DNA of 23,522 nucleotides from a virus (IMGVR_UViG_3300049097_000028:1-23522); one strand, 5' to 3'. Shown: positions 9,927 through 22,778, numbered from the stretch's first letter. The notes: generated from the letters alone by a model not told the origin. Translations and numbers: made by a program.

Positions 9927-10093
9927 TACACGGTCGCAAAAGTCGCGTCAAGTGTTTCGGTTTTTCCCGGTTTTCTCGCAACGTCCCGGAACGTCTTTTT
10001 TCGTCTGTGCCGTTCCGGAACGGCTTATCGATTTAAAATCCAGGGCGCAAAACAAACAGGCAACGAAGATCATAAAAAGCCAACCGCCGGGAG
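9927..10093. other. Short gene-free stretch after the accessory operon
   Basis: I see no gene, promoter or repeat here that I can support. It is the 3' trailer of the leftward operon between its last stop and the terminator. Confidence 0.5.
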
Positions 10094-11644: not shown

Positions 11645-12355
11645 TTATTCGCCCCCCAGGTCGTAAAGTAACCAATCTTTATTCGAACCGTTCGCGATTT
11701 GGTCGGCGTACTTTTCGACAACGAACCCGGCTTCGGGACCAGGGGCGAAACCTGACGCCGCCGGAATCAGAACACGCGACCCGCGAAGGAATTGGTCGAT
11801 TACCAGGGCGGCCTGTCGATGACTGACGCCGTAAATAATCCCGGCGTTTATATAGTCGCCGAAGTCGATTTCCGAATCGTCCAGGTTCAACTTGAATAGA
11901 TGACCGTGAACTTCGTCGAATACGACGCAAGTGACATCGACCCGACGATCGTTCGCGAAATTCGTAATACACGAATAGCCGCCGCATTCGCGCGAATCGT
12001 AATCGTCCGCCGCCGTGTTCAAAACGGCTTCGTTTGCTTTGGCCGAATCGTCCAGGTCGATCGAATGGATCAACGGAAATTCGTTCGTCATTAAATCGCG
12101 GTTGTCGGTTTCGTCATACTTCGCCAGGATTTCGTCGCCGGTACGTTCCCGGCCTTCAATGCAATAATGGAAAATCAATTCCTTCGCCAAGTGACGCGAA
12201 CGGTCGCGCATAAAATAGACCAGCTTCCAGCCTTCGAAGTCTTTGTCGTATTCGGCGCGGACCAGGCGGAATTCTAAAACCTGGGCTTCGTCATAAAATC
12301 GGCCAGTTTCAAATGACCGGGCTGTCGGGCTGTAATTTAATATTTCGTTTTTCAT
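11645..12355 (-). CDS. Hypothetical protein, 236 aa
   Basis: A 236-residue acidic mixed alpha/beta protein, the longest of the accessory operon, that I cannot assign. Notable stretches are EGWKLVYFMRDRSRHLAKELIF near the N-terminus, a cysteine pair in SRECGGYSCITNF, and near the end GVSHRQAALVIDQFLRG, a possible helix-turn-helix. ACAGGAAACCAAACC on the minus strand precedes ATG 12355. One copy of the TTGTCGCG-N6-GCTAC element (12385-12408) lies about 30 bases upstream and points into the gene, so this gene may have its own promoter. Confidence 0.75.
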   Translation of the reverse strand: MKNEILNYSPTARSFETGRFYDEAQVLEFRLVRAEYDKDFEGWKLVYFMRDRSRHLAKELIFHYCIEGRERTGDEILAKYDETDNRDLMTNEFPLIHSIDLDDSAKANEAVLNTAADDYDSRECGGYSCITNFANDRRVDVTCVVFDEVHGHLFKLNLDDSEIDFGDYINAGIIYGVSHRQAALVIDQFLRGSRVLIPAASGFAPGPEAGFVVEKYADQIANGSNKDWLLYDLGGE

Positions 12356-12384: not shown

Positions 12385-12408
12385 AAAGTGTAGTTTAAAA
12401 CGCGACAA
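12385..12408 (-). promoter_or_regulatory. Repeated 24-bp element, leftward copy 1 (TTGTCGCG-N6-ACTAC)
   Basis: On the minus strand TTGTCGCG is followed after six bases by ACTAC, one base different from the other copies, at the same spacing. It lies 30 bases before the start at 12355. It shows the -10-like TACACT but no -35 box at the usual 17-base distance. Confidence 0.55.
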
Positions 12409-12416
12409 ATGCCGCG

Positions 12417-12824
12417 CTATTTACAATGCAGCATTCTTTTGAAATGCGCTTTCGAGTCGTTACCGAATCCACATTCGACGGACTTCATTGTCAGGCCGCC
12501 GCGCGGTCCGATGAAAAAGAAAATCCGCGAATCGCACATCAACGCGCGGGGCGAATATTTTCCACAATCCGAACGGCGGGTCGTGACGGTTGCAGATACA
12601 AAATATTTTCCACAACGTTCCAGCTTGAAGCGGATCGACGTGACGCCGTTGTAAGCCTCGCGATTGCGAACCAGGCGAACGACGGCACGAAGGCCGCGAC
12701 GTTCGCGCGGGTTCAGGTCCCGGACGTGGACGATTTCGAATTGGTCGTCAAGATCGACGCGGTTGACGCGGGCCAGTAATTTGTCGGCGTCGGCGATTAT
12801 TTGGTCGGTTGTTTTGGTAGTCAT
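12417..12824 (-). CDS. Hypothetical protein
   Basis: A 135-residue basic protein without a recognised family. ATAGGAAACGAAACC on the minus strand gives a ribosome binding site for ATG 12824 almost identical to those of its neighbours. The N-terminal helix (DQIIADADKLLARVNRV) is followed by VRDLNPRERRGLRAVVRLVRN and a Cys-containing beta-rich half. Two rightward readings in the same stretch lack ribosome binding sites. The DNA contains AATATTTTCCACA-like segments twice, about 60 bases apart. Moderately confident that it is real. Confidence 0.68.
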   Translation of the reverse strand: MTTKTTDQIIADADKLLARVNRVDLDDQFEIVHVRDLNPRERRGLRAVVRLVRNREAYNGVTSIRFKLERCGKYFVSATVTTRRSDCGKYSPRALMCDSRIFFFIGPRGGLTMKSVECGFGNDSKAHFKRMLHCK

Positions 12825-12854
12825 GGTTTCGTTTCCTATGTTGGTTGATGGGGA

Positions 12855-13298
12855 TTAAGCCGCGACACGAACGCGCGGCTTTTGAGTTTTCCAGAATTCG
12901 GCGACCAGGTCCGACTGACCATTTCCGGCCAGTAAAGACCAAACAGCGCGATCCAGTTCATATTCAGTTTCGTATTTCCAGCGACCCATAAATTCGCGGG
13001 CGGCGGCTTCCAGTTCGTCCGAATTATTGAAGTGAACGAACACGAATTTCGCCTGGGGGATTTCGTCGTTTGTGTTGCTGTATTCATAAAGGTCCCGCAT
13101 TCCGTCGAAGTGACCGTATTGAAAACCCTTTGCGTAAGTCTCGATCATTTCGCGAACAGCCGGGACGACGTCCTGGTTTATGTTGACGTTGATACTTGAA
13201 CCCATGCTGTAACTTTTAGAAGTGACGCGGGCGTCGATGTTGTTCGCCTTTAAGTGTTTGCGGATCATGGCGGCGGCTTGTGCGACTTGTGATTTCAT
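12855..13298 (-). CDS. LPD29-type domain protein, first gene of accessory operon
   Basis: A 147-residue protein matching the LPD29 pattern: AAAMIRKHLKAN followed by RVTSKSYSMGSSINVNI, then VREMIETYAKGFQYGHFDGM and a tyrosine-containing stretch. LPD29 is known as an accessory domain of phage and plasmid polyvalent proteins, many of which travel with anti-defence functions; here it stands alone. AACAGGAAACGAAAAC precedes ATG 13298. Transcription probably starts at the leftward element at 13331-13354 and is governed by the palindrome at 13316-13336. As first gene of an operon next to the repressor it is expected to be expressed early. Confidence 0.82.
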   Translation of the reverse strand: MKSQVAQAAAMIRKHLKANNIDARVTSKSYSMGSSINVNINQDVVPAVREMIETYAKGFQYGHFDGMRDLYEYSNTNDEIPQAKFVFVHFNNSDELEAAAREFMGRWKYETEYELDRAVWSLLAGNGQSDLVAEFWKTQKPRVRVAA

Positions 13299-13315
13299 GT
13301 TTTCGTTTCCTGTTT

Positions 13316-13336
13316 CAGTTAATGTTCCATTAACTG
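13316..13336. promoter_or_regulatory. Perfect palindromic operator candidate
   Basis: CAGTTAATG and CATTAACTG form a perfect 9-bp inverted repeat around a three-base centre (TTC). It overlaps the end of the leftward promoter-like element at 13331-13354 and sits 18 bases before the first accessory gene. A dimeric repressor, most simply the XRE protein encoded at 13483, could bind here and block leftward transcription. Confidence 0.75.
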
Positions 13337-13354
13337 TAGCAGTAAACGCGACAC
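13331..13354 (-). promoter_or_regulatory. Repeated 24-bp element, leftward copy 2 (GTGTCGCG-N6-GCTAC)
   Basis: On the minus strand GTGTCGCG, six bases, GCTACAGTT: the same spacing as the other four copies. Its GCTAC end runs into the 21-bp palindrome, as expected for a repressible promoter driving the accessory operon. Confidence 0.6.
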
Positions 13355-13403
13355 TTCACAGGGATTTTTCAGGGGTAAAGGCAAAAAAAAGGCAATTAAT
13401 CGA

Positions 13404-13409
13404 TATAAT
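13404..13409 (+). promoter_or_regulatory. -10 box TATAAT before the regulator gene
   Basis: A perfect TATAAT lies in the divergent control region and would start a transcript at about 13415. No good -35 box is seen 17 bases upstream. The resulting leader would place the GAGAGGAAG ribosome binding site and the ATG at 13483 well inside the message. Confidence 0.45.
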
Positions 13410-13416
13410 TTGAACT

Positions 13417-13440
13417 ATGTCGCTTTATTTGCTACGGTCT
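13417..13440 (+). promoter_or_regulatory. Repeated 24-bp element, rightward copy 1 (ATGTCGCT-N6-GCTAC)
   Basis: ATGTCGCT, six bases, GCTACGGTC: fixed spacing as in the other copies, with two differences in the left box. It is back-to-back with leftward copy 2 across the control region and points into the regulator gene at 13483. Confidence 0.5.
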
Positions 13441-13482
13441 GGACCTGAAACGACCACACAACAACGAGAGGAAGAAAAGCGA

Positions 13483-13707
13483 ATGGGAACTTTAACCCTA
13501 CGCGAAGCCCGAAAAAAGTCTGGTTTAACGGGGAACCAGGTCGCCGCGCTTGCGGGTTGTGATCGTGCGACACTTTACCGGATCGAAGACGGGGACAGCC
13601 AACCCAGGCGGGACACCGCGCGCGCTTTGTTTTGCCTTTACAAGGGGGCCGTCACCCTGGCGACAATCTACGATCCAGAATTTTCCAACCAGGTCCGCGC
13701 GGCCTGA
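13483..13707 (+). CDS. XRE-family helix-turn-helix regulator
   Basis: A 74-residue DNA-binding protein of the lambda-repressor/XRE type, essentially just the HTH domain. Residues 5-40 form the HTH: LREARKKSGLTGNQVAALAG, then CDRATLYRIEDGDSQP, where the second helix pair contacts DNA. I start at 13483 because GAGAGGAAG lies nine bases before it; a reading from ATG 13417 adds 22 residues and would start inside the promoter region. It sits opposite the accessory operon and beside the 21-bp palindrome, so it likely represses that operon and perhaps itself. No dimerisation or cleavage domain is present, so it is not a full CI-type repressor. Confidence 0.88.
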   Translation: MGTLTLREARKKSGLTGNQVAALAGCDRATLYRIEDGDSQPRRDTARALFCLYKGAVTLATIYDPEFSNQVRAA

Positions 13708-13718
13708 TAACGATTTCC

Positions 13719-13745
13719 CTGACCGGGCCGATTAACTTTTATGAT
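13719..13745 (+). promoter_or_regulatory. Candidate sigma70-type promoter for the rightward operon
   Basis: CTGACC (13719-13724) and TATGAT (13740-13745), separated by 15 bases, resemble -35 and -10 boxes, with a short spacer. Transcription would begin near 13752, giving an ~80-base leader that contains the attenuator-like structure at 13780-13817. Confidence 0.4.
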
Positions 13746-13779
13746 TATCACAGTAATCGCTTAACCAAATCGACGCCGT

Positions 13780-13817
13780 GAGGGCGATCGACGGCCCTGG
13801 TCAGGGCTTTTACTTTT
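13780..13817 (+). terminator. Attenuator-like leader with alternative hairpins
   Basis: GGCCCT (13793-13798) and AGGGCT (13803-13808) form a 6-bp stem with a GGTC loop followed by TTTACTTTT, a short intrinsic terminator. An earlier AGGGC (13781-13785) can pair with the same GCCCT arm, so the two hairpins exclude each other. This is the layout of an attenuator in the leader of the gene at 13831. Confidence 0.6.
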
Positions 13818-13830
13818 GCAGGGGTAAAGG

Positions 13831-14124
13831 ATGCAACTAGAAAACTATTTCGAATCGTGCGCGGCCTGCGGGTCCCGGACGATTCATTTCGTTTTAAACC
13901 CGCCGATGATTCGCCGCCATTGCGCGAAATGCGGGCGCGACAATTCCCCGACCTGGGGGGCCGAATTTGCGCCTGGTTATCCTTTGCCCGAATTCGCGGC
14001 GATCGCCGCCTTCGTCCCCGATCGTCCGGCCCCGTCCCCGCGTTATGTTCCGCCGCGATCCTGGGAAGAACTTTCCAATTTCGAACGGTCCCAACATTTC
14101 GGACCCGCCGCCCTTCACGACTAA
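13831..14124 (+). CDS. Zinc-ribbon small protein
   Basis: A 97-residue protein with C10-x2-C13 and C31-x2-C34, a zinc ribbon whose two knuckles are separated by 17 residues. The C-terminal half is Pro/aromatic rich (PDRPAPSPRYVPPRSWEEL), with a short helix at the end. AGGGGTAAAGG is the ribosome binding site of ATG 13831. It is the first gene of the rightward operon, after the attenuator-like leader. No known family; zinc and nucleic-acid or protein binding are inferred from the ribbon only. Confidence 0.8.
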   Translation: MQLENYFESCAACGSRTIHFVLNPPMIRRHCAKCGRDNSPTWGAEFAPGYPLPEFAAIAAFVPDRPAPSPRYVPPRSWEELSNFERSQHFGPAALHD

Positions 14125-14139
14125 AAAGGAAACGAGACT

Positions 14140-14454
14140 ATGACAGACAACCCCCCGGAAATTTATCTGGACCCACGGGTCGCCAAGACAATCCCCCAGG
14201 AACCCGCCGGACCCGATTCGCAGCGGGAACAGGTTCGCTATTTCAGCGCCGTCCGCGTGAAGGAACTGATCGACATGGCCAGGGGCGGCCCGGAATTTAT
14301 CATCCAGATCACGACCCCGCCGAAGTCGTCCGCGATCTTCGCGCTGACGAATTACGGTCGAATATTTCAGCGGTCGTCGAATAATTCCTGGAAGCCGGTC
14401 GAAGGTCCTGACCTGGGGACGGACGCGAACGTCCGATCGGAAGGGGGCGGATAA
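14140..14454 (+). CDS. Hypothetical protein
   Basis: A 104-residue protein that I do not recognise. AAAAAGGAAACGAGACT precedes ATG 14140. The first 45 residues are acidic and proline-rich; residues about 50-95 (GGPEFIIQITTPPKSSAIFALTNYG, then RIFQRSSNNSWKPVEGP) read as three beta strands with alternating hydrophobics, similar to small single-repeat beta domains. Its TAA overlaps the next ATG by one base, so the two are translationally coupled. Confidence 0.75.
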   Translation: MTDNPPEIYLDPRVAKTIPQEPAGPDSQREQVRYFSAVRVKELIDMARGGPEFIIQITTPPKSSAIFALTNYGRIFQRSSNNSWKPVEGPDLGTDANVRSEGGG

Positions 14455-14633
14455 TGTTCCAGGCGATTCGGATTTGGTTCGCCTGTTGGTTTGCTGGCCA
14501 CGATTGGACCTGTAAGGCCGCCGAAGATATCCCGCCAACAGAATCGCAATTGAAGCACGGCGTTTCCGGCTTTTATGATTATGCGAAAATGTACTGTAAA
14601 CGCTGCGGACGCGAATCCGGGAGGAACCTTTAA
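14454..14633 (+). CDS. Small zinc-binding protein, 59 aa
   Basis: A short gene between its neighbours with coupled ends: ATG 14454 overlaps the previous stop, and its TAA is followed one base later by the next ATG. The 59 residues contain GHDWTC (H16, C20) and MYCKRCGRES (C48, C51), a four-ligand zinc site typical of tiny phage proteins that begin with a hydrophobic stretch (IRIWFACWFAGHDW) and carry HDWTC. Function unknown. The codon use and tight spacing make it convincing in spite of the length. Confidence 0.82.
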   Translation: MFQAIRIWFACWFAGHDWTCKAAEDIPPTESQLKHGVSGFYDYAKMYCKRCGRESGRNL

Positions 14634-14634
14634 A

Positions 14635-14964
14635 ATGCGAAAATGGAAATCAGAACACGACCCACAAACGCGGGTTTTCCTTTACTTCCAGGAACACCCG
14701 AACAAGTTTTTCAACGCGCGCCACATCGCCAGCCAGGTCCGCGTCGCCCGTCGCCGGGTCCAGACAATAATCGAATACCTGGAAGACCTGGGGAAGATCG
14801 AAGGCGTCCATTGTGTAACGTCGAAATTTTGGGGGCGGCCCCGGACGTTATACCGAAGCATTCGCGGCGGCCCGATCCATGATTCGATCCCCCAGGTTGA
14901 AGCCTTCGCCCCTGGCGGCCAGGTCATCGAGGACGTGCCCGAACAATTGCGGATCGAACAATGA
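14635..14964 (+). CDS. Winged-helix DNA-binding-like protein
   Basis: A 109-residue basic protein. I start at 14635, where GGGAGGAACC lies just upstream; a reading from 14575 runs through the previous gene. Residues about 13-60 (RVFLYFQEHPNKFFNARHIA, SQVRVARRRVQTIIEYLEDLG) fit a winged-helix domain: two helices, a recognition helix rich in Arg and a wing with KFWGRPRTLYR. It may regulate phage or host genes or act in replication. The C-terminal 35 residues look disordered. It overlaps the next gene by four bases (ATGA). Confidence 0.78.
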   Translation: MRKWKSEHDPQTRVFLYFQEHPNKFFNARHIASQVRVARRRVQTIIEYLEDLGKIEGVHCVTSKFWGRPRTLYRSIRGGPIHDSIPQVEAFAPGGQVIEDVPEQLRIEQ

Positions 14965-15233
14965 TCCGGATCGACTTCGAACCAGGCGAATCCAGGCTTC
15001 AATATTTGGCCCGCGTCCTGGTCGCTTATATGGATTTTTTCGAACCCGGTTTGATTCATTACGACGGCGCTGAATGCGATGGTCAATGCCTCGCGGACGA
15101 TATCGAATCCGCCGTCGAATCGCTGCCCGACCTGGAAGACCTGAAAAAGGCGGTCAACTATTTCGACGCCGGGGGGGAAGTCGACGCCCGGTCCGAATAC
15201 TTGATCAAGGCCGCCCGGAAGTTGATCAAGTGA
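14961..15233 (+). CDS. Conserved-type small acidic phage protein
   Basis: A 90-residue acidic protein containing LIHYDGAECDGQCLADDI, a motif I recognise from many uncharacterised phage proteins where HYDxAxCDGxCLxxD recurs. The preceding helix (RLQYLARVLVAYMDFF) and the following one (LPDLEDLKKAVNYF) suggest a small helical fold. Function unknown. It starts with ATG overlapping the previous stop (ATGA) and ends overlapping the next start (GTGA), so it lies in a tightly coupled gene chain. Confidence 0.82.
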   Translation: MIRIDFEPGESRLQYLARVLVAYMDFFEPGLIHYDGAECDGQCLADDIESAVESLPDLEDLKKAVNYFDAGGEVDARSEYLIKAARKLIK

Positions 15234-15469
15234 TAGATTTACCAGAAAATATTCTATTGCGGACCGTGACCTTCCTGGACGGCGCGAACGGCTATAAAAT
15301 GCAATGCCGGGTAAATGAAGACCTGGGCCTATATGTCACGTCAGAACGCGAATCACGTCACGACCCATTTATTCACGCGATCACTATGGACGGCGTCGAA
15401 GGAATATTCGGATCGATTGAAGACCTACGCGAAGCGGTCGACGCGATCAACCTGGAAGCGACGATATAA
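15230..15469 (+). CDS. Hypothetical protein, GTG start
   Basis: A 79-residue protein starting at GTG 15230, which overlaps the previous TGA as GTGA; GGAAG lies upstream. An in-frame ATG far upstream would overlap the previous gene by about 160 bases and is unlikely. The protein has an alternating hydrophobic beta start (NILLRTVTFLDG) and a C-terminal helix (SIEDLREAVDAINLEATI). No family recognised. Tight coupling in the operon supports it. Confidence 0.75.
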   Translation: MIDLPENILLRTVTFLDGANGYKMQCRVNEDLGLYVTSERESRHDPFIHAITMDGVEGIFGSIEDLREAVDAINLEATI

Positions 15470-15473
15470 ACAA

Positions 15474-15701
15474 ATGAAAAAATCAAAGGTTAAACGCTGG
15501 CGCTGCGGGGATTGTGGCGCGATCTTTAACAAGCCGACATTTCGCCACGTCCCGGACGCCGACGACCCAACGATCCCGCGCGCCCTTCGCCAGCCAGGAA
15601 TCCCCGTCCTTTACACTTGCCCCGATTGTGATTCGGGTAACGTTCGCGGTATGGCCAACCCTGACCCGTTCACGCCGATCCAGGCTTCCCCCGACAAATA
15701 A
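15474..15701 (+). CDS. Small zinc-ribbon protein
   Basis: A 75-residue protein with a very basic N-terminus (KKSKVKRWRCGDCG) and a zinc ribbon C11-x2-C14 ... C49-x2-C52. Such ribbons with a basic tail often bind nucleic acid. No clear ribosome binding site is present; the ATG is four bases after the upstream stop, so translation may depend on coupling. The next gene is 71 bases further, after the repeated promoter-like element. Confidence 0.75.
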   Translation: MKKSKVKRWRCGDCGAIFNKPTFRHVPDADDPTIPRALRQPGIPVLYTCPDCDSGNVRGMANPDPFTPIQASPDK

Positions 15702-15712
15702 ATTCTGGAAGG

Positions 15713-15736
15713 TTGTCGCGTTACAAGCTACAATCG
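15713..15736 (+). promoter_or_regulatory. Repeated 24-bp element, rightward copy 2 (TTGTCGCG-N6-GCTAC)
   Basis: TTGTCGCG (15713-15720), six bases, GCTACAATC. The TACAAT part matches a -10 box in five of six positions. It lies 60 bases before the recombination gene at 15773 and points into it. Confidence 0.65.
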
Positions 15737-15772
15737 AGGGGCTATTTTGCAAACGAAAAAGGTAATCATCAA

Positions 15773-16891
15773 ATGACCGAACAAAACGAAGCCCTGGCGG
15801 TTGTCAAATCCGACAGCCCCCCGGCAGATCAACCGATTGAAATCCACAACCAATCCCCCGCCCCGGTCCAAATTCGAAACGCCTTCGACCTGGCCCCTGG
15901 CCAATTCAAGGCGGGACTGAAACGCCAGGGGGAAAATCGAACGGCCTTAATGACCTGGATCAAAGGCGAAATGCATGAAGGCGTCGACTATGGAAAAATT
16001 CACGTCGTCAAACGCGACAAATGCAACAAGGGGAAATTCTGCGATAACCCCCACCATTTCAGCAAGGATTCCCTGTTCAAACCAGGGGCCGAAAAAATCG
16101 TCGGAATGATGGGCTTCCGCGCGATCTGGCCGACGCTGGTCCAGTACGAAAACGCCGCGATCGAAGGGAAGCAAATCAACCAGGTCGCGCTTCGCTGCCA
16201 GTTGGTCGACAAGTCGGGGAACATCATTTCCGAAGGTTGGGGGGCGCGTAACCTGGCCCAGGATTCGAACGACCTGAACAAGTCCGTCAAAATGGCCAAA
16301 AAGTCCGGGCTGATCGACGCCGTCCTGAATGCTGGCGGATTGTCCGAAGTGTTTACCCAGGACGTCGAAGACATGCCGAAGGATTCGTTCGGCGACGAAC
16401 CGCCGTTCGATCCATACAACCAGGAACAGGTCCGGTTTGACGGGACCGAACGGATCGACCCGGCGAAGGCGTTCCCATTCGGGAAGCATAAGGGCCAGCC
16501 CTGGGCCGACGTTCCCCTGGACTATCTGGAATGGTGTCTGGATAAAATGTCGAACCTGGACCCCGGCCTTCGGAAGCAAATCGAACAGGCCGCCGCCGAT
16601 AAATTTGTCGCGCCGGAAGTGACACAAGGATCGTTTGAAGCTAAGATCGAAGAACGTTTCGAGGAAGTAACCGAAGACCAATTGAAAGACGAACGGATCA
16701 CGCGCGCCGAATCGCGTCCGCTGCAGTATTACGCGGACCTGATCGCAAGGGCCGCCGGACAGCTTGAACTTGAAAACGTGAAACAAGATATAGCCGGATC
16801 GATCCACGAAAAGCCGTTGAAGGCTTTCCTGGCCGAACGGCTGAACAGCTTTTTAAACTGGGAACCTGCAGGGGAAGAAAATGTCGACTGA
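15773..16891 (+). CDS. Probable recombination protein (annealing-like) with DUF3820 C-terminal domain
   Basis: A 372-residue protein. The N-terminal half contains ALMTWIKGEMHEGVDYGKIH (about 58-77), C84 and C90 in CNKGKFC, then HHFSKDSLFKPGAEKIVGMM (94-113) and SEGWGARNLAQDSNDLNKSV (153-172), with a KMAKKSGLIDAVLNAGGLSEVFTQD tract. Phage proteins with the LLKPGAEK block are commonly found in recombination modules; whether they are single-strand annealing proteins is my inference. Residues about 233-265 (FPFGKHKGQPWADVPLDYLEW) match the DUF3820 pattern. I start at 15773, with AAAGGTAA upstream. The stop overlaps the partner gene by 11 bases. Likely role: homologous recombination or repair during replication. 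Confidence 0.72.
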   Translation: MTEQNEALAVVKSDSPPADQPIEIHNQSPAPVQIRNAFDLAPGQFKAGLKRQGENRTALMTWIKGEMHEGVDYGKIHVVKRDKCNKGKFCDNPHHFSKDSLFKPGAEKIVGMMGFRAIWPTLVQYENAAIEGKQINQVALRCQLVDKSGNIISEGWGARNLAQDSNDLNKSVKMAKKSGLIDAVLNAGGLSEVFTQDVEDMPKDSFGDEPPFDPYNQEQVRFDGTERIDPAKAFPFGKHKGQPWADVPLDYLEWCLDKMSNLDPGLRKQIEQAAADKFVAPEVTQGSFEAKIEERFEEVTEDQLKDERITRAESRPLQYYADLIARAAGQLELENVKQDIAGSIHEKPLKAFLAERLNSFLNWEPAGEENVD

Positions 16892-17600
16892 AATAAACAT
16901 CAATAAAGAACTGGCGAAGGCCGAACTTCGTCCGATCGCGATCGATATCGCAACGTTCAACGATACGCTGGACGGGATCGAAATCGAAACCGAAGACGAC
17001 CAGGGGACCGTCGCGGACCTGGTTAAATTTATGAACGGATCGCGGAAGAAACTGGAAACGAAACGCCTGTCCCTGGTCGAACCGTTGAAGTCGGTCGCGA
17101 AGGACATCGACGCAATGTTCAAGGTCCCGCGCGATCAGATCGACCTGGTCCTGGTGAAGGCGAAAGGGAAAATGAACAATTTCGCCCAGGCCCAACACGC
17201 GATCGCAGCCGCCAGGGCGAAGGCCGATCGCGAAGAAGCCGAAGCCGAAGAACGCGAAGCCCGCAAGCTGGCCGCCGACCTGGCGTCGATCAGCGAACAC
17301 GCCGCACCTATGGCCGAAGCCGTCATCGAACAAGCCCAGGCGAAGGTCGTCAAGGCCGCCGCCCCGGTCCAGGTCGCCGCCGTCAAATCCGAAACGACAA
17401 CGACCGCCGTCAATAAGACCTGGACGGTCGACGTCCTGGACGTGGTCGCGCTTTGCCGCGCTGTCGCCGACGGCCTTATCGGGCCGGAAATGATCGACCC
17501 GAACATGGCGGCCCTTCGTGATTTCTGTCGGGCCGAAGCGGTCGAACGTGAGAAATTCGGCTGCAAGTTCTATCAAAAGATTTCGACAACTGTCCGCTAG
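16881..17600 (+). CDS. Recombination-module partner protein, coiled-coil (DUF1351-like)
   Basis: A 239-residue protein overlapping the previous gene by 11 bases, with GCAGGGGAAGAAA upstream. The first half (TVADLVKFMNGSRKKLETKR, LSLVEPLKSVAKDIDAMF) resembles phage proteins that accompany recombinases, including DUF1351. A long Ala/Glu/Lys helix (about 100-150) is likely coiled-coil. The C-terminal 60 residues (TWTVDVLDVVALCRAV, then a helical end with FGCKFYQKISTTVR) form a separate domain. The position directly behind the recombination gene suggests that the two act together, but the activity is unknown. Confidence 0.75.
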   Translation: MSTEININKELAKAELRPIAIDIATFNDTLDGIEIETEDDQGTVADLVKFMNGSRKKLETKRLSLVEPLKSVAKDIDAMFKVPRDQIDLVLVKAKGKMNNFAQAQHAIAAARAKADREEAEAEEREARKLAADLASISEHAAPMAEAVIEQAQAKVVKAAAPVQVAAVKSETTTTAVNKTWTVDVLDVVALCRAVADGLIGPEMIDPNMAALRDFCRAEAVEREKFGCKFYQKISTTVR

Positions 17601-17609
17601 GGGGTCGCT

Positions 17610-17825
17610 ATGCCGTCAAGACAAATCTGTCCGATAATGTCCCGCCCGGTCGCGATCACGAAAGCGAACGGGATCGTCGTCCCTGAAATGCACCTGGTCG
17701 ACTGTTGTGGCGAAGGCTGTCAATTTTGGATTTCGATCTATTCAGCCGAAGGATTTAAACAGTCGCCCGAATGCGCCCTGGTCCTTCCCGCCCTGTCGAA
17801 CGCTGACGGGCTTTTCGTCGTTTAG
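17610..17825 (+). CDS. Small cysteine-rich protein
   Basis: A 71-residue protein with cysteines at 7, 32, 33, 37 and 55 (CPIM, DCCGEGCQFW, ECALV), a probable single metal site. TAGGGGGTCGCT before ATG 17610 is a typical ribosome binding site here; it starts ten bases after the previous stop. No known family. The next gene has a nearly identical leader (TAGGGGGTCACT), suggesting coordinated expression. Confidence 0.75.
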   Translation: MPSRQICPIMSRPVAITKANGIVVPEMHLVDCCGEGCQFWISIYSAEGFKQSPECALVLPALSNADGLFVV

Positions 17826-17834
17826 GGGGTCACT

Positions 17835-18398
17835 ATGGCAAAGCTAGTTAAATGCGATTATTGCGGCGTCCTGACGTACTCGCTAAGGGTTGGCGACGGT
17901 TGCGATCGATGCAACCAGGGGACCATGAAGGCCGACAGCGCGGAACCGGATTTCCGGGGCCACGTCGACGCGCCAGCCGGGGAAATGACGACAGCCGAAG
18001 GGGCGGCCCTGGTCGACGAACCCGAACGCCCGATCGCTGACGCGTCCGCCTTCGGCCTGGACCAGCCGGACAATCCGGTCATCGAGGCGCAGCCCAGGAA
18101 GGGGCCGAAGGTGACGGGACACGACGGGGCGGATTTGTGGGACCTGTTACGCGATGGCGAATTCCACAAGGCGAAGGACCTGAACATGGAAAGCCGGAAA
18201 ATCCGGGCCGTTTGCGCCGTGTATCCGAATCAATTCCTTTCAACACAATCGGGATATAAGATCGTAAAAAAGGCGACCGACGGCGAAATCGAAAACGCCG
18301 CCGCCGACCTTCGTTCCAGAATGGCCCACCTGGGCCGCCGAGCGTCCGCCCTTGAATCGGTCCTTCACGCCCGCAAACAACCGGGGTTCGACTTATGA
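17835..18398 (+). CDS. Zinc-ribbon plus winged-helix-like protein
   Basis: A 187-residue protein with a zinc ribbon C7-x2-C10 ... C23-x2-C26, an acidic linker (about 33-95) and a C-terminal domain that opens with DLWDLLRDGEFHKAKDLNME and continues with SRKIRAVCAVYPNQFLSTQS and GYKIVKKAT, a winged-helix-like arrangement ending in a helical bundle (DLRSRMAHLGRRASALESVL). This combination suggests DNA binding, perhaps transcriptional control, but I do not recognise the exact family. It overlaps the next gene by four bases. Confidence 0.8.
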   Translation: MAKLVKCDYCGVLTYSLRVGDGCDRCNQGTMKADSAEPDFRGHVDAPAGEMTTAEGAALVDEPERPIADASAFGLDQPDNPVIEAQPRKGPKVTGHDGADLWDLLRDGEFHKAKDLNMESRKIRAVCAVYPNQFLSTQSGYKIVKKATDGEIENAAADLRSRMAHLGRRASALESVLHARKQPGFDL

Positions 18399-18538
18399 AC
18401 TGTTTTTATTTTTTCGATGTCGGCGACGTGTCGGCGTTTCAATGGATCGGGATCGGGGTCGTCATTATCGCCGCGCTGGCCGGGTTTATTTCACTGCTGA
18501 ACATGGCGATCGCTTACAGCGCCAGGGGGGAAGGATGA
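18395..18538 (+). CDS. Small membrane protein, 47 aa
   Basis: A 47-residue gene with coupled ends: ATG 18395 overlaps the previous TGA, and its own TGA overlaps the next ATG. A single transmembrane helix lies at about residues 16-38 (QWIGIGVVIIAALAGFISLL). Function unknown. It is distinctly separate from the lysis membrane proteins further downstream. Confidence 0.7.
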   Translation: MNCFYFFDVGDVSAFQWIGIGVVIIAALAGFISLLNMAIAYSARGEG

Positions 18539-18888
18539 CAAATTCGATTTTCAATTGGTTTTGGCAGCCCCCTATAAACGGATCGCCGGGGCTGTTAATG
18601 GTCGCGGACTTTCACCCAGGCCCGGAAGCGGTCGACGTTCCGTTCGTCCTGGAAGACCTGGGAAACGTGCTGTTATGGGTCGAAGCCCGGATCGACAAAA
18701 AACTGTCGCTTCATTCCTTCCGCCTGTATACGCGGGACCCGTTGGGGATATGGGCGCAAATTGCATTCAACGACCCAGGGTCGCGGAAGTTCACGGTCCG
18801 GCAGCCTGACGCCGAACAGGCCAGCCTGTCCGAATTATGGGACCAACGGCTGGCCCGGTCCGATCGCCCGACCAGGTTGGATTCGTGA
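18535..18888 (+). CDS. Hypothetical protein
   Basis: A 117-residue protein starting at ATG 18535 as part of an ATGA overlap; the earlier in-frame starts lie in the preceding gene. It is Trp/Pro-rich at the N-terminus (FNWFWQPPINGSPG), and about residues 30-85 read as alternating strands and a helix (LEDLGNVLLWVEARIDKKLS, FRLYTRDPLGIWAQIAF). No family recognised. Its end overlaps the next start (GTGA). Confidence 0.72.
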   Translation: MTNSIFNWFWQPPINGSPGLLMVADFHPGPEAVDVPFVLEDLGNVLLWVEARIDKKLSLHSFRLYTRDPLGIWAQIAFNDPGSRKFTVRQPDAEQASLSELWDQRLARSDRPTRLDS

Positions 18889-19151
18889 ACACCTGGCAAA
18901 TTATCGGCCTGGTCGTCGCTGGTTGGTTCGTCCTGTCGGTCCTGGCCCTGATCCTGGCGATGAAATGCTTCGAAGCCGGACGCTATGCCGAACGGAAAAT
19001 GGTTTCCGAAAACCTGGCGGAAATTGTTCGCCAGGGCGTCGATAAGGTATTGGGCGCGCCGAACGAACAATGGTCCAAACCCATGCGGGACCAGCTTCGG
19101 CTGAAAATGTTCGAAACAATTTCAGAGGTAAAAAACACGACCAGGCATTGA
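18885..19151 (+). CDS. Small membrane protein, GTG start
   Basis: An 88-residue protein starting at GTG 18885 (GTGA overlap). One N-terminal transmembrane helix (about 5-24, IIGLVVAGWFVLSVLALILA) is followed by a basic/acidic cytoplasmic or periplasmic helix (YAERKMVSENLAEIVRQGVD, then a final RLKMFETISEV). Last gene of the early/middle rightward operon before the hairpin and terminator. Function unknown; it could be membrane-anchored and may interact with host cell-surface or replication machinery. Confidence 0.72.
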   Translation: MNTWQIIGLVVAGWFVLSVLALILAMKCFEAGRYAERKMVSENLAEIVRQGVDKVLGAPNEQWSKPMRDQLRLKMFETISEVKNTTRH

Positions 19152-19213
19152 TCAACCCTTTTAACTTGGGTCCGATGCGGAAACAATGTCCGGTCGAGTA
19201 TTTCAAGGCGCTA

Positions 19214-19248
19214 GGGTCCCCCGCGCTTTGATCTGAAAAGGGGGGACC
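19214..19248. other. Strong hairpin before the terminator
   Basis: GGTCCCCC (19215-19222) and GGGGGACC (19241-19248) form an 8-bp stem around an 18-base loop in the gene-free stretch after the middle operon. There is no T-run on either side, so it is not an intrinsic terminator by itself; it may protect the upstream 3' end or cooperate with the terminator that follows. The rest of 19152-19288 shows nothing else I can support. Confidence 0.5.
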
Positions 19249-19288
19249 AGGGTCGCGCGTTTGTTGGTATCCTCGCGGCCTGGGGAAG

Positions 19289-19334
19289 GCCCCGTCGATC
19301 GGTTTTCGTTTCCTGGTCGGCGGGGCTTTTTTTT
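19289..19334 (+). terminator. Strong intrinsic terminator of the middle operon
   Basis: Bases 19289-19300 (GCCCCGTCGATC) pair with 19315-19326 (GGTCGGCGGGGC), a 12-bp stem with two G-T pairs and a 14-base loop, followed by eight T residues. It separates the middle operon from the lysis cassette. Confidence 0.9.
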
Positions 19335-19359
19335 GCCTGCAGGGCGGTTTTGGTATAAG
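19333..19359 (+). promoter_or_regulatory. Promoter candidate for the lysis cassette
   Basis: TTGCCT (19333-19338) and TATAAG (19354-19359) with 15 bases between them resemble -35 and -10 boxes. They lie right behind the terminator and about 50 bases before the first lysis gene at 19409. Confidence 0.5.
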
Positions 19360-19408
19360 GTCGGCCCGTCGATCGTGAGGATCGCCCGAATCACCAGCGG
19401 GGAACCGA

Positions 19409-19852
19409 ATGACAATTGAACGCGTCCGCGATGACCGAAGCAAAAAGGGAACCCACGGCGTCATCGAGCTAGGCGGGAAAACCTGGCACACCATCGAACC
19501 CCCGGACCTGGGGAACAAGCCCTTCGAATCATGCGTCCCCCTGGGCGAATATGATCTATTGCCGTTTTCGTCCGCGAAATATGGCGAAGTCTTTTTGATG
19601 GTTAACCCCGATTTAAACGTTTACGCCTTCGAAGATTCACCTGGCCGCCCGGACGACGGTCGCTTCCTTTGCATCCTGGCCCACAAGGGAAACGAGGTTG
19701 AAAACTTCGTCGGCTGCGGGGGCTGTTCGCATACCTACGACGAAGCAAACGACCGCCTTTTGTCCAGCACAAAACAATCATGCATCGAATTTAACCAGGC
19801 TGTCCGCGACGAAGGATCGTTGAAGCTGACAGTCCGACACGAAATCGACTAA
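19409..19852 (+). CDS. DUF5675 family protein
   Basis: A 147-residue protein with the DUF5675 pattern: an opening strand pair (HGVIELGGKTWHTIEPPD), GNKPFESCVPLGEYDLLPF (about 36-55), a strand containing an aromatic residue and NPDLNVYAFED, then FLCILAHKGNEVENFVGC with GGCSHTYDE. Members of this family sit in or next to lysis cassettes of many tailed phages; the activity has not been established to my knowledge. It stands directly after a new promoter and heads the lysis operon, so it may be involved in peptidoglycan processing. GGGGAACCG precedes the start. Confidence 0.8.
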   Translation: MTIERVRDDRSKKGTHGVIELGGKTWHTIEPPDLGNKPFESCVPLGEYDLLPFSSAKYGEVFLMVNPDLNVYAFEDSPGRPDDGRFLCILAHKGNEVENFVGCGGCSHTYDEANDRLLSSTKQSCIEFNQAVRDEGSLKLTVRHEID

Positions 19853-19862
19853 CGGGGAACCC

Positions 19863-20309
19863 ATGCAAAAGAAATTCAGCGAACAATCGACCGGGGTCCA
19901 ATGGGGAACGATTGCCACAATTATCGGATTATTGTTCGGCGGCTTCGGCGCGGCCATATGGACGGCAGGCGACACGATTATCGATACAAAATATTCGACC
20001 GACGTCGACGTCCAGGGCGTCCAGAAAAAGTTCGGCGAACAGTTCAACGCCTTCCAGGAAACCGTCCAGGCGAACACGGCGTCCGTTCAATCGACCGCCA
20101 GGTCCGTCGATGGGTTGACCCTGGTCGTCCTGGACCTTCGAATCCGGGACCTGGAAAATATCAAGTTCGACCTGGAAAGCGAAAAGACGAACGCCGGGGT
20201 CAACTGGAACAACGGCGACGAACGTGAATTGGTCGGTCTGCGGAAATCGCTGTCCGATCTGAACATTCAGCGCGACCGCTTGTTTCAGCGCATACTGGCC
20301 AACCAATGA
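19863..20309 (+). CDS. Membrane-anchored coiled-coil protein of the lysis cassette
   Basis: A 148-residue protein with an N-terminal transmembrane helix (about 16-36) followed by a helical coiled-coil from about 50 to the end (QGVQKKFGEQFNAFQETVQ, RKSLSDLNIQRDRLFQRIL). ACGGGGAACCC before ATG 19863 is its ribosome binding site. By order and architecture it could be a holin-associated or XhlA-like protein; sequence alone does not prove this. It overlaps the next gene by four bases (ATGA). Confidence 0.7.
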   Translation: MQKKFSEQSTGVQWGTIATIIGLLFGGFGAAIWTAGDTIIDTKYSTDVDVQGVQKKFGEQFNAFQETVQANTASVQSTARSVDGLTLVVLDLRIRDLENIKFDLESEKTNAGVNWNNGDERELVGLRKSLSDLNIQRDRLFQRILANQ

Positions 20310-20548
20310 ACGGCGACGATATGCAACGACCCGGCCCAGGTTTCGAACGTCACGCCCAAACAGGCTTGACTGTCCTGGTCGTCGCCCTGTTGTGTTGGGT
20401 TGGCCTGACCACGCAAAACACCCAGGTCGAAGTCGCGAAAATCGTCGTGAAGGTTTCCAGCCTGGAAGCGGCGGCCAAAGTTCCGGACGCCCGCGTCGAT
20501 GATCTGACCAGGCGCGTCGAAGCCCTGGAAGCGGCGGCCCGACCATGA
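20306..20548 (+). CDS. Small membrane/coiled-coil protein, lysis cassette
   Basis: An 80-residue protein with one transmembrane helix (about 20-37, GLTVLVVALLCWVGL) and a coiled-coil C-terminus (VVKVSSLEAAAK, TRRVEALEAAARP). Both ends overlap neighbours by four bases, so it is coupled. This organisation (membrane anchor plus short coiled coil, between lysis genes) is like XhlA-type lysis helpers; the assignment is tentative. Confidence 0.65.
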   Translation: MNGDDMQRPGPGFERHAQTGLTVLVVALLCWVGLTTQNTQVEVAKIVVKVSSLEAAAKVPDARVDDLTRRVEALEAAARP

Positions 20549-20784
20549 CCCCCGAAGATTTCAATAAATGGCGCGTTTGGCCCCGGCTGTTGACCGGCGC
20601 GTTTTCGCTGTTTTTCTTCTATGCCTGGTTTTATGTCGTCGATTGGTTTATCGCGTTCAATTGGGAAACGGTCGAAAACCAGGCGGTCGCCCTGGCCCTG
20701 GCCGGGTTCCCCGCCGCGATCCTGACCGTGATCACGATCGTCCTGGGGAAGTTGATCGATAAATATATGAACGGACCGACGTGA
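20545..20784 (+). CDS. Holin candidate
   Basis: A 79-residue protein with two predicted transmembrane helices, about 15-37 (LLTGAFSLFFFYAWFYVVDW) and 47-71 (AVALALAGFPAAILTVITIV), and short charged ends. Small size, two membrane helices and the position directly before the spanin genes fit a class II holin, which forms the pores that end the infection. It starts at ATG 20545 in an ATGA overlap and ends overlapping the GTG start of the i-spanin gene. Similar short proteins with an EDFNKWR N-terminus occur in other phages. Confidence 0.65.
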   Translation: MTPEDFNKWRVWPRLLTGAFSLFFFYAWFYVVDWFIAFNWETVENQAVALALAGFPAAILTVITIVLGKLIDKYMNGPT

Positions 20785-21158
20785 ATATCCAGATCATTAT
20801 CCTGGTTGTATGCCTGGGCGGCGGCCTGATCGGGGCCGGGGCCTGGATCGTGAACGGCCAGATCGACGCCCGTGTCGTTGCCGAACAGAACGCCGTCGCG
20901 TCAAAAATATCCGCCGAAACGGCGAACGCCAGGGTCGCGCAACTCGAAAGCGACCTGGTAAAAGAAAGTGAACGCCAGGAAATACTTCAAAAGGAACTGC
21001 AGGCCGCCCGCGACCTAGAAGCAACAACGACCGAAGTCCTGGAAGACCGTCGACGCCTTGATTCGCTTACCGCAGCAAAGCCGACCCTATTGGAACGCAT
21101 GGCGCGGAAAGCGACGACGAAGGTTTGGGACGAAATCGAGTCGGAATCGCGACAGTGA
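20781..21158 (+). CDS. i-spanin (Rz-like)
   Basis: A 125-residue protein with an N-terminal transmembrane anchor (about 4-24) and a long periplasmic coiled coil (about 30-100, AETANARVAQLESDLVKESE, RQEILQKELQAARDLEATTT), the architecture of inner-membrane spanins. Spanins fuse the inner and outer membranes at the end of lysis. The start is GTG 20781 overlapping the previous TGA. The gene's end overlaps the o-spanin start by four bases. Its presence shows a Gram-negative host. Confidence 0.78.
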   Translation: MNIQIIILVVCLGGGLIGAGAWIVNGQIDARVVAEQNAVASKISAETANARVAQLESDLVKESERQEILQKELQAARDLEATTTEVLEDRRRLDSLTAAKPTLLERMARKATTKVWDEIESESRQ

Positions 21159-21490
21159 AAGCGGGCGCGACTCTGTTTTTCCTGCTGGCCCTTCCTGGCT
21201 GTTCACTGCTATCCCCGAAGCCCGCCGACATAGTAATCAAGCCGGAACCCGTCCCGGTCATTTGCGGGGCCGTCAACAACAAGCCCGACGCCCTGGTCCT
21301 AAAGGACACGCCGCCGACGGTCGCCCTGGGTCCGAACCAGGTTTGGGGTTACTGGTTCAGTCCTGACCTTTACGCGTCGTTAGCGGAAAACCTGCAAGCA
21401 ATGCGGGCCTATATGATCCAACAGCGCGCCATCCGTGGGACCCTGGTCAAATGCATCACGGACCACAATGACAAAATAAAAACGGAATAA
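21155..21490 (+). CDS. o-spanin lipoprotein (Rz1-like)
   Basis: A 111-residue protein starting at GTG 21155, which overlaps the i-spanin TGA. The first 15 residues are a lipoprotein signal with lipobox LPGC (cysteine at 16), directing the protein to the outer membrane. The mature part is proline-rich near the start, then contains QVWGYWFSPDLYASLAENLQ and two further cysteines. In most phages Rz1 lies inside Rz; here it follows it, as in the separated type. I am fairly sure of the lipoprotein nature and moderately sure of the spanin role. Confidence 0.77.
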   Translation: MKAGATLFFLLALPGCSLLSPKPADIVIKPEPVPVICGAVNNKPDALVLKDTPPTVALGPNQVWGYWFSPDLYASLAENLQAMRAYMIQQRAIRGTLVKCITDHNDKIKTE

Positions 21491-21514
21491 TTGTCGCGGT
21501 TTTTGCTACCATCC
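21491..21514 (+). promoter_or_regulatory. Repeated 24-bp element, rightward copy 3 (TTGTCGCG-N6-GCTAC)
   Basis: TTGTCGCG (21491-21498), six bases, GCTACCATC. It starts on the base after the o-spanin stop and ends seven bases before the ATG at 21521, which would make that message leaderless or nearly so. Confidence 0.65.
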
Positions 21515-21520
21515 GACCCG

Positions 21521-21706
21521 ATGCTGGAATTCTCAAACATTGACATTTTTATCCTGGCCGCCCTGGCTAGTTGCGCCGGGGGGCTGTCGTCTATCCTGTT
21601 CGGTAAATGGATCAGGCGTCGGACCGAAATATCGCGGGAAGGCTGGCACGAAAAAGAACGCCGCCGAATCGAGGCAATTAATAAACAACTGAACGGGGGG
21701 ACGTGA
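21521..21706 (+). CDS. Small membrane protein, possibly leaderless
   Basis: A 61-residue protein with one transmembrane helix (about 8-27, IFILAALASCAGGLSSILFG) and a charged C-terminus (GKWIRRRTEISREGWHEKER). The start is ATG 21521; the TTG at 21491 falls in the promoter-like element. No ribosome binding site precedes ATG 21521, and the element ends seven bases upstream, so translation may begin at the 5' end of the message. Function unknown. It overlaps the next start (TGATG). Confidence 0.65.
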   Translation: MLEFSNIDIFILAALASCAGGLSSILFGKWIRRRTEISREGWHEKERRRIEAINKQLNGGT

Positions 21707-22020: not shown

Positions 22021-22149
22021 GTGGATATGTTATTGATACTTTTATTCGGCCTATTCCTGGGCTGGTTGACGACGCTAGTCGATAAAATTCCAACGGCGAA
22101 GGCGGTCGACGCCTGGGTTCGCGAAAAACTATCGGTCTGGTCGTCGTGA
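22021..22149 (+). CDS. Small membrane protein, 42 aa, GTG start
   Basis: A 42-residue protein starting at GTG 22021 with CGGGGGAAATACT just upstream. One transmembrane helix spans about residues 3-20 (MLLILLFGLFLGWLTTLV), followed by an amphipathic helix with a charged C-terminal tail (KAVDAWVREKLSVWSS). Its TGA overlaps the GTG of the collagen-like gene (GTGA). Too short for confident family assignment, but spacing and ribosome binding site support it. Confidence 0.65.
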   Translation: MDMLLILLFGLFLGWLTTLVDKIPTAKAVDAWVREKLSVWSS

Positions 22150-22778
22150 TCCGCGCCCTGTTCCTGGTCCTGTTACTGGCGGCGACGCCGGGGCTGGCGA
22201 AAAAAGGGAATGGACACGGACACGGACACGACCACGGCGGCGAAACTGGTCCAGCCGGTCCAGCCGGTCCAGCCGGTCCCCCAGGCGATCCAGGGCCAGC
22301 CGGTCCAGCCGGTCCAGCCGGGGCTAATGGAAACGACGGTCGGGACGGTGGCGATCCTGGCGATCCTGGTGGCGCTGATAACGGGGGCGGCGGCGAAGGC
22401 GAAGTCGCGAAATGCGGGTTCCTGGGTTGCAGTCAAAAGAACACTCCGGCCCCGGCGACGCCGGTCCCGGTTGCGATGCTGGTTCCGAAGGGTTATCCGC
22501 AAATAGTCATCGAACAGCATGGCGATATCGTGTCGGTAACGTTGATCGATTGGCCAGCGAAGCCCGAACCGATTCCCCCGGTCGTGATCCCCGCCCCGGA
22601 AGTGAACGTCGTCGTCGAAGCGACCACAATCGAACCGGCAAAAATTAACCTCGTCGCCGCTGAACCCGAAACCGAAGAACAAAAGAAAAAGAAACGCAAG
22701 GTCCGGAACGACGTCAATGACCTATTGAAGCAACTGGCCGAAGACGCGATCGCCCGCGATGACCCGCCCCCGGAATAA
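22146..22778 (+). CDS. Secreted collagen-like protein
   Basis: A 210-residue protein starting at GTG 22146 (GTGA overlap). Residues 1-18 are a signal peptide (IRALFLVLLLAATPGLA) with likely cleavage after A18. A His-rich stretch (GHGHGHDHGG) is followed by about eleven G-X-Y triplets from residue 35 (GPA, GPP, GDP, GND, GRD), i.e. a collagen-like rod; then a Gly-rich linker, a cysteine pair (C87-x4-C92 approximately), a proline-rich section, and a Lys-rich coiled-coil end (EEQKKKKRKVRNDVNDLLKQ). Phage collagen-like repeats are usually in fibres, but a signal peptide points to export by the host, perhaps to the periplasm or surface. Confidence 0.78.
   Translation: MIRALFLVLLLAATPGLAKKGNGHGHGHDHGGETGPAGPAGPAGPPGDPGPAGPAGPAGANGNDGRDGGDPGDPGGADNGGGGEGEVAKCGFLGCSQKNTPAPATPVPVAMLVPKGYPQIVIEQHGDIVSVTLIDWPAKPEPIPPVVIPAPEVNVVVEATTIEPAKINLVAAEPETEEQKKKKRKVRNDVNDLLKQLAEDAIARDDPPPE
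22249..22322 (+). repeat. 9-bp tandem repeats encoding the collagen-like rod
   Basis: CCAGCCGGT is repeated three times in two blocks (about 22251-22280 and 22296-22322) separated by a variant section. They encode the GPA triplets and may vary in number by slippage. Confidence 0.8.

Follow-up and report, generated by a model that had tools for sequence, protein, structure and literature searches.

Putative Cro-like operators fused to extended -10 promoters in a group of uncultured tailed phages

A 23.5-kb fragment of a tailed phage (tail genes present) carries five copies of a short element in which an operator and the -10 box of a promoter appear to share the same bases. The fragment is the 23,522-nt virus record IMGVR_UViG_3300049097_000028, referred to here as the window, and all coordinates are those of the window unless a contig is named. 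These elements are probably Cro-like autorepressor operators that overlap host sigma70-type promoters and act through a 74-aa XRE-type helix-turn-helix (HTH) protein encoded beside them. Binding of the HTH protein to the elements is well supported by sequence comparison, and we infer repression rather than activation from one feature only, the overlap of the site with the -10 box. The coordinates of the elements and their adjoining genes are listed in Table 1.

Table 1. Elements and adjoining genes in the window; start codon distances are in nt past the TACNNT hexamer.
Feature	Coordinates	Strand	Start codon	Remarks
Element A TTGTCGCGTTTTAAACTACACT	12387..12408	-	31	-10 TACACT at 12392-12387; predicted target gene 11645-12355
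Element B GTGTCGCGTTTACTGCTACAGT	13333..13354	-	34	Degenerate palindrome matched perfectly; predicted target gene 12855-13298
Element C ATGTCGCTTTATTTGCTACGGT	13417..13438	+	44	Divergent from B; predicted target HTH regulator gene
Element D TTGTCGCGTTACAAGCTACAAT	15713..15734	+	38	5' of predicted target gene 15773-16891
Element E TTGTCGCGGTTTTTGCTACCAT	21491..21512	+	8	Predicted target gene 21521-21706
Leftward gene, no assigned function	11645..12355	-		Predicted target of element A
First gene of leftward unit	12855..13298	-		Weak LPD29 match; predicted target of element B
XRE-type HTH protein, 74 aa (HTH_31/HTH_3)	13483..13707	+		Proposed binder of the elements
372-aa protein, phrog_10048, no assigned function	15773..16891	+		Predicted target of element D; followed by a gene of an exonuclease-annotated family
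61-aa protein, no assigned function	21521..21706	+		First gene past element E

The preliminary description of this DNA had reported five copies of a fixed-spacing element, and all five were found in place. The strict form TGTCGC-N7-[GA]CTAC-NN-T occurs five times in the window, whereas 400 dinucleotide shuffles of it averaged 0.005 occurrences and never exceeded 1. When all spacers from 0 to 40 were tested across the window, TGTCGC and CTAC were joined at a spacer of 8 only, and 5 of the 25 occurrences of CTAC belong to such a TGTCGC-N8-CTAC element. The core proposed earlier, TTGTCGCG, was slightly over-strict, its first T being present in three of five copies and its last G in four, while the accompanying statement that TTGTCG lies too near to serve as a -35 box holds because only 10 nt separate it from TACNNT. 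As a -35 candidate TTGTCG was rejected: its spacer is 10, and it varies (CGTCGCG, TGTAGCG, TATCGCG) whereas the -10 is constant. The preliminary description lacked three features: the near-dyad, the extended -10 and, further upstream, a weak stretch resembling a -35.

Column statistics were taken over 33 sites, with the near-duplicate contig G001 left out. The element is an imperfect 19-bp palindrome, TGTNGCR-N5-YGCNACA, with repeats inverted about column 11; G3, T4, G6, C7, G15, C16, T17, A18, C19 and T22 are near-invariant and columns 9-12 are variable. Summed dyad complementarity reaches 5.67 at column 11, where 2.7 would be expected, and no other centre exceeds 3.1 (column-shuffle p = 0.00015); fully symmetric examples occur, e.g., TGTAGCGGGACTCGCTACA in G008. 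The right arm doubles as an extended -10, TGnTAnnnT, with column 17 at -12. Symmetry is broken at column 17, which is T (at -12) whereas the mirror of C5 would be G, and at column 14, where T (at -15) is preferred whereas the mirror of G8 would be C; both positions deviate from the dyad towards the extended -10 bases. A palindrome search that did not require a -10 found TAnnnT in register in 14 of 14 perfect matches and in 32 of 36 with at most one mismatch. The reversed-palindrome control was poor at up to two mismatches (77 versus 79), so only matches with zero or one mismatch were used. The coincidence of the symmetry breaks with extended -10 bases, together with TAnnnT within the palindromes, suggests that operator and -10 are fused in one element. 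Elsewhere in the window, at 9930-9951 on the minus strand, TTGACGCGACTTTTGCGACCGT forms an operator-like palindrome lacking a -10 and directly precedes an intrinsic-terminator-like hairpin (AAGCCCCGGCG..CGCCGGGGCTTTTTT); at 29313 of G001 its arms and hairpin are kept and its spacer is not.

Evidence that these sites are promoters comes from base conservation and from the placement of start codons. Across the 33 sites T-12 is present in 32, A-11 and T-7 in all, G-14 in 30 and T-15 in 21; these columns belonged to the search profile, and the perfect palindromes provide evidence at -7 that is independent of it. T-12, A-11, T-7 and the TG would be the bases read by the sigma70-type factor of the host, whose preference is assumed here. 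The nearest open-frame ATG lies 6, 6, 7, 7, 7, 8, 8 and 8 nt past the hexamer at eight sites and 21-45 nt past it at 27 sites, with none at 9-20 nt. This distribution points to a transcription start about 7 nt downstream of the hexamer, which would either place the start codon at the 5' end of the RNA or leave room for a ribosome-binding site. The distance at element E predicts a leaderless or nearly leaderless start. Likeness to TTGACA peaks at the normal 16-18 bp spacing among 33 offsets, but the signal is weak (mean score 2.29 versus 1.36-2.14 elsewhere), and a plain sigma70 scan detected none of the five window elements. Caulobacter RpoD promoters read TTGaCgS / GCtANAWC (PMC8144410). The GCTACA of the element fits GCTANA in that -10; unlike those promoters, the element ends in T rather than C, has a weak -35 and holds an operator arm within its spacer.

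Several leader sequences drew attention in their own right. A leader of approximately TCACTTTGCAGGAG is conserved between element and start codon of the 15773 homologues in L110, L114, L153, L155, L156 and L158 (with variants TCACTTAGCAGGAG in L153 and GACACTTTGCAGGAG in L156), which exceeds the needs of a ribosome-binding site. At L012 13117-13160, GTGGACAAACTATAG lies 6 nt past the element and could encode four codons as a leaderless upstream frame ahead of the main gene. In L012, L116, L157 and L155, TCACACTTT or TCACAGTTT recurs outside the element that precedes the HTH gene, on its upstream side.

Relatives were found by searching with the 74-aa HTH protein and the 15773 protein. Eleven further IMG/VR contigs encode an HTH homologue (45-96% identical); in ten of them the element has its original form, and in G009 the form is altered. 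A refined profile yielded 37 credible sites, spread over 11 of the 12 HTH-bearing contigs found first; nine lower-scoring or doubtful matches were left out by eye, of which one (G007 23187, other strand) was later seen to precede a gene. Absence from relatives had been named in advance as counting against the element; these 37 sites show that it is instead conserved. Sites recur before the HTH gene, the leftward unit and the 15773 homologue, and the last position is kept in remoter contigs even though the 15773 proteins there are merely 42-52% identical. The element precedes the HTH gene itself in most HTH-bearing contigs. Divergent pairs like B and C, which flank 13355-13416 in the window, are also found in G001, G003, G004 and G010.

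The element appears confined to phages that encode the HTH protein. Among 73 loci (1.27 Mb) that have the 15773-type domain and lie outside the HTH-bearing group, no site scored 17 or higher. A pattern scan of the bulk collection returned 103 stretches, mostly with single copies, which by a rough estimate is about the chance level for 14 fixed bases at that collection size. The contigs examined that have several strong copies carry the HTH gene, the exception being L029 with two weakly related matches. Searches for relatives gave 35 matches in genome_contigs, nearly all to one Bacteroidota (mostly flavobacterial) HTH family matching only across the HTH core, and none in plasmids. The G001 terminase is nearest to those of Rhizobium and other, partly alphaproteobacterial, phages at <40% identity, a weak hint of an alphaproteobacterial host. 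We found no prior description of the operator sequence in the open-licence literature.

Symmetric reading of the element by the HTH protein is best supported by a matched change in protein and site. Two classes of recognition helix are compared here, x-[DHN]-R-x-T-L and C-T-R-P-T-L-Y-R (TRPTL, six phages), contigs of the latter class having been added by a further scan. TRPTL-class sites occupy the same gene positions, e.g., CGTCCCG-GCTCA-TGTTACTCT; the site before the 15773 homologue (the position of element D) is kept with either class. When the search placed no constraint on columns 6 and 16 and sites before genes were counted, G6 was present in 31 of 32 sites of the first class and 0 of 16 of the TRPTL class, and C16 in 32 of 32 and 1 of 16, respectively. 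The two columns pair with each other across the dyad; in the TRPTL class column 16 takes the role of the free n in TGn, and both classes keep the -10 bases and TG. Loss of the dyad mates with retention of the -10 bases separates what sigma would need from what an HTH dimer would need. The Fisher p-values (about 1e-11) overstate the difference because the TRPTL class is apparently one branch of the HTH family and the change may be a single evolutionary event. These phages would offer a natural specificity switch: at equivalent gene positions, two HTH classes face two matching classes of operator, which lets sigma-constrained bases be told from repressor-constrained ones.

The usual site is missing before the gene in a third class of HTH protein, with TDPTNLSR or a similar recognition helix. 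At L270 5895-5911, GCTGC-N7-GCAGC precedes the gene with the same arm geometry; a near copy lies at L272 5876-5892 and weaker forms lie 5' of the HTH gene in L273 and L271. These sites overlap a possible leftward promoter and are possibly a third operator specificity.

The HTH protein matches Pfam HTH_31 at 44.8 bits (cut-off 27) and also HTH_3. Its AlphaFold2 model is all-helical (pLDDT 91), and the nearest solved structures are operator complexes of C.Csp231I, followed by P22 c2, SinR, C.AhdI and 434 Cro. Foldseek matches were modest (best E 0.009), and weak E-values are usual for such small folds. The only tblastn match among 50,697 GenBank phage records (E 0.01) is in the Citrobacter phage phiNP, whose distant homologue (38.5% identical) is in the Cro position, flanked by a divergent HTH gene and a DNA-binding gene. 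Adjoining the HTH gene in the window, 13831-14124 encodes a small protein with two CxxC pairs (zinc-ribbon-like), and similar genes stand beside the HTH gene in L110 and L156.

Under the preferred reading of autorepression, host RNA polymerase with its main sigma factor would initiate at the extended -10 TGnTACNNT with a weak -35 at 16-18 bp. The inverted repeat, centred near -18, would serve as operator for an HTH dimer, which would cover -27 to -9 as the protein accumulates and keep RNA polymerase off. In Cro fashion, the protein would thereby shut its own gene and the divergent leftward unit, as well as a recombination-type unit and the one that runs on to the packaging genes. Element E precedes a DUF1064 resolvase-like gene, and in G001 (45.5 kb) the fifth site is followed by a codirectional series of resolvase-like, terminase and head genes, so all visible transcription units may answer to the HTH protein. 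Further along the window, the 22146-22778 protein contains collagen-like GPAGPAGPP repeats at 22239-22330. No integrase was matched in 12 contigs, which may be incomplete records, and this fits a virulent phage. Such a system would constitute a defined regulon, with regulator, operator, promoter and start sites, for uncultured and perhaps alphaproteobacterial tailed phages, a group for which we found no described transcription programme.

The alternative that retains most weight, though we consider it unlikely, is that the HTH protein activates transcription by recruiting host RNA polymerase to promoters with a poor -35, in a manner somewhat like that of MotA at T4 middle promoters. The weak -35, the unvarying geometry between element and -10 and the fact that almost every element is a promoter all agree with this. 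However, a symmetric dimer would occupy the place needed by sigma region 2, given that the -10 (-15 to -9) and the right arm are one and the same; known activators of this fold bind further upstream, and a strong -35 can be dispensable at extended -10 promoters. A slightly more doubtful form has a single-domain HTH activator or promoter-choice factor that, through an element interlocked with the -10, steers host polymerase to every phage promoter. If true, a single small protein would drive the phage programme in place of a sigma factor or polymerase.

It is improbable that the element is bound instead by a host regulator or another conserved phage protein, with the HTH protein a bystander. 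The zinc-ribbon-like protein would be a candidate given that its gene accompanies the HTH gene in relatives too, but the base changes follow the HTH recognition helix, and in most contigs a site stands before the HTH gene itself. This and other conserved neighbouring proteins could take part.

The preliminary description had weighed a phage-specific promoter against a regulator box overlapping the -10, and the latter is favoured by palindromy, by the element's confinement to HTH-encoding phages and by the joint change of helix and dyad mates. Two fixed blocks at constant spacing before several gene starts would suit a phage-encoded sigma factor or single-subunit RNA polymerase, yet we regard this as very improbable. 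No sigma region-4 domain scored above cut-off in 12 contigs (positive controls worked), the RNA_pol search of possibly incomplete records gave no match and no positive control response, and no unexplained polymerase-sized open reading frame stands out in G001. Moreover, the bases conserved in the right block match a sigma70 -10, and the left block changes with its dyad mate along with the recognition helix. Least probable of all is a sigma54-type promoter (TGGCAC-N5-TTGCW): a -24/-12 layout would accommodate the interval between G at -26 and GC at -14/-13, but the near-invariant GG at -24 reads GT in all five window copies, and T-12, A-11, T-7 and the 6-8 nt to leaderless starts fit sigma70.

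The general type of regulatory system proposed here is already known, and its notable parts are the fused operator and -10 and the two specificity classes. As in the lambdoid Cro systems (lambda, 434, P22), a small single-domain HTH protein has operators over promoters, including two divergent ones beside its own gene. Unlike those systems, there is no recognisable CI-like partner gene opposite the HTH gene (the divergent gene 12855-13298 matched no repressor family) and no integrase match, the operators are single and scattered over the genome rather than in triplets, and the bases of one operator arm double as the -10. Controller (C) proteins of restriction-modification systems in the C.Csp231I class are the top structural matches and are likewise small autoregulators with two short operator arms around an N5 spacer (CTAAG-N5-CTTAG in C.Csp231I; PMC4321490). 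Here, in contrast, sites are single rather than paired OL/OR and the arm sequence is different; no restriction or modification genes were found among the ten window genes scanned, nearest neighbours included. TgrL of the virulent Caulobacter phage phiCbK is an early-expressed, self-interacting XRE protein that represses 92 of its 99 direct host targets and has a motif with two half-sites (PMC10688885). It was not among the tblastn matches to the window HTH protein in the phage records, from which phiCbK is possibly absent. Both are phage XRE proteins associated with a motif of two half-sites, but TgrL has been studied for its effect on host genes.
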